NCBI GenBank assembly: GCA_951813625.1
Contig: CATOTS010000026.1
Location: forward strand, 1 to 64,000
From: an uncultured Caldilineaceae bacterium
Lineage (GTDB): Bacteria > Chloroflexota > Anaerolineae > Caldilineales > Caldilineaceae
Direction: 5' to 3'
Length of the DNA: 64,000 nt
A program made the position numbers and the translations under genes. Positions 36,510 to 39,503 of this stretch are shown one piece after another (the first letter of the stretch is position 1; each line of letters starts with the position of its first letter). Below the pieces are notes generated by a model that was not told where the DNA came from, searched no databases, and worked only from the letters and a program-made list of their open reading frames with translations.

Positions 36510-39503
36510 ATGAAAAGACCAGTTACGCTTACAATCAATGGAACCTTCCACCGTTTCGAAAGCCAACCCGGCGAACTGCTGCGTACGGCCTTGCGCCGTC
36601 TTCGATTCTTCAGCCTCAAGCACGGCGACGAAACCGGTGAAAGCGGGTCAGACGCGCTCCTCTTCTCCAGAACACCCGACAACCCGACCAGTTACCGTCT
36701 CGTAAACAGCGGTGTCCTCTTGGCCTCTCAAGCCGACGGCGCATCGATTGTCACCCTCGAAGGGCTGGAGGAGAATGAGGCGGACCGTTTCAATTCACCG
36801 GTCTCCGCATTGCAACAGCAGTTTATCGAATGCGGCGCAATCCAGTGCGGCTACTGCACACCTGCGCAGATCCTGGCCGCCCAGGACCTCCTTGATAGAG
36901 AGCCGCATCCCAGCGAAGCCGCCGTCCGTACAGCGATCGCCGGTGTCCTCTGCCGCTGTACAGGGTACGTGAAACCGGTCCAGGCGATCCTGCGAGCCGC
37001 TGCCCAGCTGCGAGGAGAGTCGACGCACCCACCCCAAATCGACGTGCGCGACGCGCCGACTACTGGCGAATGGCCCGCGGACAGTGCCGAAGGCTTGCCT
37101 CCCTCCAACGGATGGCACGATGGCGGGCCGGACACCCGTACCCAGACCCAGAGCGTAACCGTGACGCTTGCTCCGCCCCAAACGCAGGTCGTCAATAGGC
37201 CCGAGCCAAAGGTCGATGCCTTCAAGTTGGCCAAGGGCCGCCCAGTCTTTACGGACGATGTCGAGCTGCCCGGCATGCTCTATGCCGGCCTTCTCACCAG
37301 CCCTGTCGCCCACGCCCGCATCCTCTCCATCGATGCCTCTGAAGCTATGGCTATCCCGGGCGTCCACGCCGTACAGACTTACGCCGACCTGCCGCGTGTC
37401 ATCTATGCCAGCGGTGGGCAAAGCTATCCCCAGCCGCCTCCTTACGACCAGGTCAGCCTAGATTCAAAGGTTCGTTACGTAGGAGACCGCGTGGCCACGG
37501 TCGCAGCCGAGACGCCCGAACTCGTGCAGGAGGCATTGGAGCGTATCCGCGTCGAATATGAGGTATTGCCCGCCGTCTTTTCGCCCGAAGACGCGACGCA
37601 GCCCGGCGCACCAGTGATTCACGACGAGGACGACGCCCAGATGATCCACGATCCCGCCTGCAACATTGCCGTGAAGTTGCGCGTGGACCACAACGACGTG
37701 GATGAAGCCCTGTCCTCTGCCACTTTCGTTTTTGAGAGCGAATACCGTGTGCACCAGGTGCAGCAGGCCAGCATCGAACCCCATGTCGTCATCACCTTTT
37801 GGGACGAAGACGACCGCCTTGTCATTCGCACGAGTACACAGGTACCATTCCACGTGCGCCGTATGGTTGCCCCCCTGCTCGGCCTGCCCGTTCGACGCAT
37901 TCGCGTCGTCAAACCACGTATCGGCGGCGGATTCGGCGGCAAGCAGGAGATGTTGATCGAAGACCTTTGCGCCCATCTGACAATCGCCACCGGCAGGCCG
38001 GTCAAATTTGAATACACACGCCAGCTGGAGTTTAGCTCCGCGCGCACGCGGCACCCACAGTGGTTGCGCTTTCGCAGCGGCATCGACGCCGACGGCAAAT
38101 TGGTCGCAATGGACGTGCGAGTCGTGGCCGACACCGGCGCTTACGGGACCCACGGTCTCACTGTGCAAATGGTAACCGGCTTTCGCGCTCTCAGTACCTA
38201 CTGGCTCCCCTCGGCCCGCTTCGACTGCGATGTCGTCTACACCAATAAGCCGGTGCCCGGCGCGTTTCGCGGCTATGGCGCGCCGCAGGCCCTCTTTGGG
38301 TTGGAACAACACATGGAGGAGATGGCGCTGGCTTACGGCATGGACCCGGTGGATTTCAAGCGCTTAAACTGGGTCAAAGAAGGCCAGTCGCTCCCGATGG
38401 CCATCGCAATGGGCGAAGGCCGCGAGGGTTTCCCTCAAACTGTGCAGAGCAATGGGCTGGCTGAGTGCGTCGAAGCTGGAGCAACATCAATCGATTGGGA
38501 GCGACGCTACGACCCGGCCTGGAAGGCCCCTTCGGACCGACCCAACATTCGTCGCGGCGTCGGCCTTGCAATATGTATGCACGGTACCGGCATCGCCGGG
38601 CTTGACATGGGCGCCGCCAGCATCAAACTCAACGACGACGGCTCATTCAACCTGCTCGTCGGTGCAACCGACCTCGGGACCGGCTCTGATACCGTCCTCG
38701 CACAGATTGCGGCTGAAGCCCTCGGCGTCCCCCTCGAGCAAATCCTCATTTACAGCAGTGACACCGACTTCACGCCCTTTGACACAGGCGCATACGCCAG
38801 CAGTACCACCTACATCTCCGGTGGCGCCGTGCTGAAGGCTGCCGAAGACGTTAGCCTCCAGATTCGCCGCCACGCCGCCGCGCATCTGCTCGATGGCGCA
38901 GACGCCGAGCAACTCTGGTTGGAGAACAAGCACATTCTCGCCCCCGATGGTGGTTCTGTCTCACTCGAAACGCTCGCCCTCCATAGCATCCATCAGGAAG
39001 AGCAACACCAGATCATGGCCACCGCCAGCCACATGAGCTACGTCAGCCCGCCTCCTTTCGCCGCCCAGTACGCTGCGCTCGAGGTGGATACGGAGACCGG
39101 TCAATTGACGGTCGAAAAGGCGGTCATGGCGGTCGACTGCGGCGTAGCCATCAACCCCGTGACCGCGAGCGGCCAGGTCGAAGGCGGTATGACCCAAGCG
39201 CTCGGCTACGCCTTGTGCGAGGAGATGCCCTACGACGAGAAGGGACGGCTGCAAATTGGCAGATTCGGTGACTACCGCATCCTGGCCGCCGACGAGATGC
39301 CGGTCCTGGACACGATTCTGGTGCAGACCTACGAGCCGACTGGACCATTTGGTGCCAAGGCCGTCGCCGAGATCCCGATGGACGGAATGGCCCCCGCCAT
39401 CGCCAGCGCAATTTACGATGCCACCGGCGTGCGCATCCGAGAGATTCCCTTCACCCCGGAACGTGTGTGGAGGGCGCTGCGAAACTCCTTAGACAAAGAT
39501 TAG
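36510..39503 (+). CDS. Fused [2Fe-2S] small subunit and molybdopterin large subunit of a xanthine dehydrogenase-family enzyme
   Basis: 997 residues. Residues 1-95 are a plant-ferredoxin-like domain and 96-165 the helical second [2Fe-2S] domain, with Cys113, Cys116, Cys148 and Cys150 present. From about 230 the Mo-binding large subunit follows: GGGFGGKQEM, RGYGAPQALFG, DLGTGSDTV, and GAKAVAEI with the probable catalytic Glu. The first domain is odd: the usual G-C-x4-C-G-x-C reads HGDETGESGSDA and the later NSC reads NSG, so all four cluster cysteines are replaced (Asp40, Ser45, Asp48, Gly68). The frame is intact across the fusion. Substrate unknown; hydroxylation of an N-heterocycle or aldehyde is typical of the family. 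Confidence 0.9.
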   Translation: MKRPVTLTINGTFHRFESQPGELLRTALRRLRFFSLKHGDETGESGSDALLFSRTPDNPTSYRLVNSGVLLASQADGASIVTLEGLEENEADRFNSPVSALQQQFIECGAIQCGYCTPAQILAAQDLLDREPHPSEAAVRTAIAGVLCRCTGYVKPVQAILRAAAQLRGESTHPPQIDVRDAPTTGEWPADSAEGLPPSNGWHDGGPDTRTQTQSVTVTLAPPQTQVVNRPEPKVDAFKLAKGRPVFTDDVELPGMLYAGLLTSPVAHARILSIDASEAMAIPGVHAVQTYADLPRVIYASGGQSYPQPPPYDQVSLDSKVRYVGDRVATVAAETPELVQEALERIRVEYEVLPAVFSPEDATQPGAPVIHDEDDAQMIHDPACNIAVKLRVDHNDVDEALSSATFVFESEYRVHQVQQASIEPHVVITFWDEDDRLVIRTSTQVPFHVRRMVAPLLGLPVRRIRVVKPRIGGGFGGKQEMLIEDLCAHLTIATGRPVKFEYTRQLEFSSARTRHPQWLRFRSGIDADGKLVAMDVRVVADTGAYGTHGLTVQMVTGFRALSTYWLPSARFDCDVVYTNKPVPGAFRGYGAPQALFGLEQHMEEMALAYGMDPVDFKRLNWVKEGQSLPMAIAMGEGREGFPQTVQSNGLAECVEAGATSIDWERRYDPAWKAPSDRPNIRRGVGLAICMHGTGIAGLDMGAASIKLNDDGSFNLLVGATDLGTGSDTVLAQIAAEALGVPLEQILIYSSDTDFTPFDTGAYASSTTYISGGAVLKAAEDVSLQIRRHAAAHLLDGADAEQLWLENKHILAPDGGSVSLETLALHSIHQEEQHQIMATASHMSYVSPPPFAAQYAALEVDTETGQLTVEKAVMAVDCGVAINPVTASGQVEGGMTQALGYALCEEMPYDEKGRLQIGRFGDYRILAADEMPVLDTILVQTYEPTGPFGAKAVAEIPMDGMAPAIASAIYDATGVRIREIPFTPERVWRALRNSLDKD

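Follow-up and report, generated by a model that had tools for sequence, protein, structure and literature searches.

An XdhD-like molybdenum oxidoreductase without plant-type [2Fe-2S] ligands, from a family in which cluster cysteines appear to have been lost repeatedly

Results

A gene pair for a predicted FAD subunit and a fused FeS-Mo protein

The window, which is the whole stretch of 64,000 nucleotides analysed here, is part of a contig (G000:C26) of a 5.4 Mb genome of an uncultured Caldilineaceae bacterium. It carries a pair of genes with the following features:

35666-36472, + strand: FAD-binding subunit gene, YgfM/CoxM type, 268 aa, first in the pair (PF00941, 99.8 bits)
36510-39503, + strand: XdhD-like fused FeS/Mo oxidoreductase, 997 aa (single open frame, profiles, alignment)
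36510-36767, + strand: domain 1 (residues 1-86), ferredoxin-like, without plant-type [2Fe-2S] ligands
36627-36629, + strand: D40 (codon gac), replaces plant-type Cys 1
36642-36644, + strand: S45, replaces plant-type Cys 2
36651-36653, + strand: D48, replaces plant-type Cys 3
36711-36713, + strand: G68, replaces plant-type Cys 4
36846-36959, + strand: retained second-cluster ligands C113, C116, C148 and C150
37017-37175, + strand: linker from the FeS part to the Mo part, about residues 170-222, largely disordered
37185-39485, + strand: Mo-cofactor domains (residues 226-992; PF01315, PF02738 and PF20256, far above cut-off)
38415-38417, + strand: E636, counterpart of E. coli XdhD E606

The first gene counts as a predicted FAD subunit, given its PF00941 match and the CO-dehydrogenase flavoprotein fold of its AlphaFold2 model (pLDDT 91.8), whose top PDB match is the flavoprotein chain of CO dehydrogenase (1zxi, TM 0.82). 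The AGGT and ATVGG motifs are present, and the TIGR03312 profile (Se_sel_red_FAD) scores 70.6 bits, short of the 241.5 set as its cut-off. Directly upstream, a 208-aa protein encoded at 34956-35582 (+) has no Pfam match. The second gene joins a two-part FeS region to Mo domains. Its model (pLDDT 89.1, 68 sequences in the input alignment) matches the Desulfovibrio aldehyde oxidoreductase 1dgj from end to end (TM 0.87 by target), with pLDDT dropping below 50 in the linker, at residues 185-221. The original prediction, which was made from the letters of the window, had described a small-subunit domain running on into a normal-looking Mo part. The latter is borne out by the single 997-aa frame, the Mo profiles and the Mo-site motifs GGGFGGK, GAFRGYG and AVAEIPM; the domain was correctly identified, but it belongs to a fused FeS-Mo protein and not to a separate small subunit.

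Elsewhere in the window, three large proteins of 933, 911 and 917 aa are encoded in a row at 47291-55653 (+). The last two are 58% identical and the middle one matches the membrane-protein family PTPS_related (PF10131), so this region looks like a tandem duplication. An IS66-family transposase of 495 aa lies at 7132-8619 (+), and a polyphosphate kinase 2 family protein at 40819-41553 (-).

The plant-type ligands are missing and the replacement is shared by a clade

In domain 1, the plant-type motif G-C-x4-C-G-x-C...C is replaced by G39-D40-ETGE-S45-G-S-D48...N-S-G68. The codons for D40, S45, D48 and G68 confirm that all four cysteines are gone, as originally noted, and the window protein matched none of the plant-type Fer2 models in a Pfam profile search. 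The four cysteines of the second domain are kept, as also predicted, and Fer2_2, the model of the second cluster, scores 85.9 bits, above its cut-off of 30.3. The suggestion that the first domain is otherwise intact agrees with its confident AlphaFold2 fold (block pLDDT 91-96 at residues 1-80). Plant-type cysteines are retained in the genome's other FeS subunits or domains of xanthine-oxidase type that were read. Xanthine-oxidase-family proteins occur at five further places in this genome, on C11 (L193), C36 (L002/L009), C17 (L003/L011), C47 (L004/L012) and C39 (L006).

D40, D48 and G68 are identical in 15/15 genus orthologues read, in which position 45 is S with a single T, and all 15 carry C at the second-set positions. 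Eight further sequences of the family have the same replacement, position 45 being S, T or A. The search for homologues with the same four-position change thus recovered 23 clade sequences that have it. Among the carriers are two single-contig genomes (G012 and G015; named records OY282376.1 and OX638330.1), and most of the nearest named records in which the gene is found, at 84-94% identity, are metagenome assemblies of Caldilineaceae. Close homologues, which the original prediction had allowed might retain all four cysteines, lack them, and only more distant ones keep them.

Selection was assessed by dN/dS (Nei-Gojobori, median over pairs), which gave 0.133 for domain 1, 0.074 for the ex-cluster loop (residues 36-70), 0.066 for the second cluster domain, 0.055 for the Mo part and 0.169 for the linker, the highest among the regions tested. 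This purifying selection, with a low dN/dS in domain 1, indicates that the domain is maintained. A sequencing error or a decaying pseudogene was rejected on the shared replacement in relatives and on dN/dS: 23 clade sequences share the change, the reading frame is open, the dN/dS values of the regions tested all lie within 0.05-0.17 and the Mo-site motifs are in place, leaving this explanation a negligible chance. We are thus practically certain that the loss of the plant-type ligands is real and fixed in the clade.

Both clusters vary across the family

The search for orthologues covered 41 genomes of relatives and 298 of the class, 163 of the latter having a match at an E value of 1e-200 or better. 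All four cluster combinations occur among the 112 aligned orthologues: both cysteine sets in 46, only the second set, as in the window protein, in 29, neither in 24, and the plant-type set only in 2. A further 8 have neither set except for a single Cys at position 148, 2 have only a single Cys at position 113, and one (L033) has three plant-type cysteines and an apparently damaged frame start. The family with all four combinations spans about 50-94% identity to the window protein, and many orthologues at about 55-67% identity carry all eight cysteines. In L135 and L130, which represent the reverse case of the window protein, the four plant-type cysteines are kept and the second-cluster cysteines are replaced by S, D/E, S and E.

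On a tree of the Mo domains, at least 7 changes are needed for the plant-type set and at least 5 for the second set; a mixture-model tree of 58 family members plus one outgroup needs at least 6 and 4, respectively. Such counts by themselves cannot separate gain from loss. We read these changes as losses because a simultaneous regain of four ligands is unlikely and because the genome's other FeS subunits or domains of this family have the cysteines. The losses are nearly all-or-none per cluster. As judged from these alignments and trees, either cluster, or both, would have been shed at least six times in this XdhD-kin family. Either cluster can apparently be lost first: only the plant-type set is missing from L127, whose sisters L142/L143 lack most of the second set too, and only the second set is missing from L130/L135, whose sisters L152-L156 have neither.

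The residues that stand in for the plant-type cysteines recur, the D-x4-(S/T)-G-x-D replacement having arisen in several lineages. D, S/T and D, with G, A, S or Q at the fourth site, are shared by the window clade (A once at the second position), L124/136/137/158/159, L127/142/143 and, apart from a single S in third place, L074/075/076/078. S-T-A-D and S-D-S-V types are seen in two further loss lineages. We suggest that carboxylates and hydroxyls may take over backbone hydrogen bonds formerly made to the cluster.

An FAD gene lies upstream at 18/38 both-cluster loci, 22/27 loci of the window type and 20/31 loci with neither set, counts that are uncorrected for kinship and from which we draw no link between cluster loss and an upstream FAD gene. 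In L102, L111, L113, L122 and L145, shorter FAD-subunit matches without the usual FAD-binding motifs lie beside an eight-cysteine FeS-Mo protein; the FAD module may also erode in these branches.

E. coli XdhD is the closest characterised relative

E. coli XdhD, purified with the co-purifying putative YgfM, converted urate to yanthine with NADH, and its residue E606, absent from XdhA, has been proposed to orient the substrate (PMC12507026). By sequence comparison, this urate reductase appears to be the closest characterised relative of the window protein. The two are 34% identical over the whole length, and the Mo part of XdhD scores 390-572 bits against the orthologues versus 208-348 bits against the other xanthine-oxidase-family proteins tried. 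The counterpart of E606, E636 in the window protein, is E in 112/112 orthologues, and its GEG loop is missing from E. coli XdhA, L042 and the other family members aligned. All eight cluster cysteines are missing from E. coli XdhD. The window protein scores 613 bits on the XdhD model TIGR03313, on which E. coli XdhD itself scores 2122.8. Since this is below the cut-off of 1101.9, we call the protein XdhD-like and not XdhD; the XdhA model scores it slightly higher, at 659 bits. In the tree, the placement of XdhD beside the family rests on a long branch. Of the hallmarks of the xanthine oxidase family, the Mo domains and the FAD subunit are present, and the second of the two clusters is the only one with ligands, the plant-type positions being D, S, D and G. 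Two broader XdhD-like features, the E606 counterpart and an FAD-subunit gene directly upstream, are found, and a third, linkage to uric-acid pathway genes, is seen at some orthologous loci only.

Some gene neighbourhoods contain uric-acid pathway genes

Among 84 loci with enough flank, ssnA-like genes occur at 10 and YqeB-like genes at 19. In L089, from the window's own family, the order is YgeY, carbamoyltransferase, FAD subunit, FeS-Mo gene and SsnA. In L131 it is npdG/cofD/cofC look-alikes, an LLM F420 oxidoreductase, FAD subunit, FeS-Mo gene and an XdhC-family gene. No uric-acid gene adjoining the FeS-Mo gene was recognised within the window. Elsewhere in the window genome, SsnA lies beside NpdG on contig C2, and C11 carries an LLM reductase along with CofD, CofC and further genes of XDH type. 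Across 46 family genomes, the FeS-Mo gene, SsnA and the LLM reductase are jointly absent from genus g26 (4 genomes) and from G004, and several other genomes lack one or two of the three, some of them perhaps being incomplete. YgeX had no match in 25 genomes, an empty search result that alone is weak evidence, and YgfK has only a partial match in the window genome, so that the pathway would be a variant one.

Discussion

We propose, with a probability of about 0.58, that the pair at 35666-39503 encodes an XdhD/YgfM-like purine reductase in which domain 1 is structural and electrons bypass the plant-type cluster. The plant-type cluster would have been lost once, in the ancestor of the window clade, and domain 1 kept as a structural scaffold of the complex, its D-S/T-D-G set plausibly filling the hydrogen-bond nest vacated by the cluster. 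Electrons would enter from the FAD subunit and drive a reductive reaction at Mo, which they would reach via the remaining cluster or via a closer placement of FAD. Of its parts, a role as purine reductase is fairly probable, the substrate suggested by the kinship to XdhD being urate, with the enzyme most likely acting as a urate dehydroxylase. An electron route to Mo without the plant-type relay, in both its direction and its path, is offered more tentatively. In xanthine-oxidase-type enzymes, the relay closest to FAD is the plant-type cluster, and its loss would therefore leave a long gap unless FAD is placed differently or the step is slow. The gap would be larger still in branches without any cluster ligands, for which the activity of XdhD argues that catalysis is still possible.

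The original prediction had offered a rearranged path, a different acceptor or a structural domain. These were the right choices to pose, but the repeated loss across the family and the kinship to XdhD had escaped it. If that kinship extends to function, electrons would probably flow toward Mo, and a different acceptor may be the wrong thing to look for.

Other explanations lead the electrons elsewhere, or nowhere. An external one-electron partner, such as a ferredoxin, flavodoxin or cytochrome, might dock near the remaining cluster and make the FAD subunit secondary. This would suit the fast divergence of the FAD subunit (75% identity, versus 94% for the FeS-Mo subunit, to the same relative), the orthologues without an FAD gene within about 4.5 kb upstream and the FAD subunits that lack the usual motifs. 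In the window clade, however, nearly every locus with sufficient flanking sequence has an FAD gene upstream, the FAD motifs are kept, the fold of the window FAD subunit is confident and neighbour clustering reveals no obvious partner gene linked to the clade, and we regard such a partner as unlikely. An electron chain would not be needed at all if the enzyme worked like a transhydroxylase, one substrate reducing Mo and another reoxidising it at the same site, and both clusters could then disappear while the Mo domains stay intact, as in other branches. The unchanged second-cluster ligands of the window clade speak against this, as does the fact that XdhD, without cluster cysteines, worked with NADH (PMC12507026), making this mechanism improbable.

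A relay could also be restored if a different metal ion, or a cluster with unusual ligands, were bound at the D40/S45/D48 site. Several separate losses do show D, S/T and D at these three positions, but G68 offers no ligand side chain, two loss lineages carry the S-T-A-D and S-D-S-V types, and the second-cluster cysteines have likewise given way to acidic or polar residues, which suits the filling of a hole; we consider a metal at this site very improbable. The purine-reductase reading remains the one we prefer.

The two-cluster chain is usually taken as fixed in xanthine-oxidase-type enzymes, and repeated losses question this textbook path. XdhD-like reductases might form a natural series in which either or both clusters were dropped repeatedly, with convergent acidic replacements and continuing catalysis, and in which the chain FAD to plant-type cluster to second cluster to Mo is not followed, a generalisation to which we give even odds. 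With all four cluster combinations in one family, a comparison of natural enzymes could directly test the role of each cluster. The family is also relevant to the way in which E. coli XdhD reduces urate, an enzyme whose missing cluster ligands go unmentioned in the passages of the literature that were searched. A stated cluster loss in XdhD or the xanthine oxidase family was likewise not found in that literature, which largely excluded subscription papers, and the terms 2Fe-2S and cysteine are absent from the main text of PMC12507026. No experiments on any member of the window clade were found in the literature searched.

Among known systems, E. coli XdhD-YgfM shares with the window pair a fused FeS-Mo protein whose gene directly follows that of a separate FAD subunit of YgfM type, the loss of the plant-type cysteines with D...G-S-D at matching positions, and E606/E636 with the GGQS motif. 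XdhD has D, A, D and A at the plant-type sites, in a loop one residue longer. It differs in having also lost the second-cluster cysteines, which the window protein keeps, and the window lacks an adjacent ygfK or ssnA. Chloroflexota ssnA clusters with a putative F420-dependent oxidoreductase have been described from bioinformatics (PMC12507026). Some orthologues likewise adjoin ssnA and LLM F420 oxidoreductase genes, whereas in the window genome the ssnA/F420 genes sit on other contigs. Finally, XdhABC, CO dehydrogenase, 4-hydroxybenzoyl-CoA reductase and the Desulfovibrio aldehyde oxidoreductase have the same domains, Mo-site motifs and overall fold as the window protein, but unlike it they hold both [2Fe-2S] clusters.
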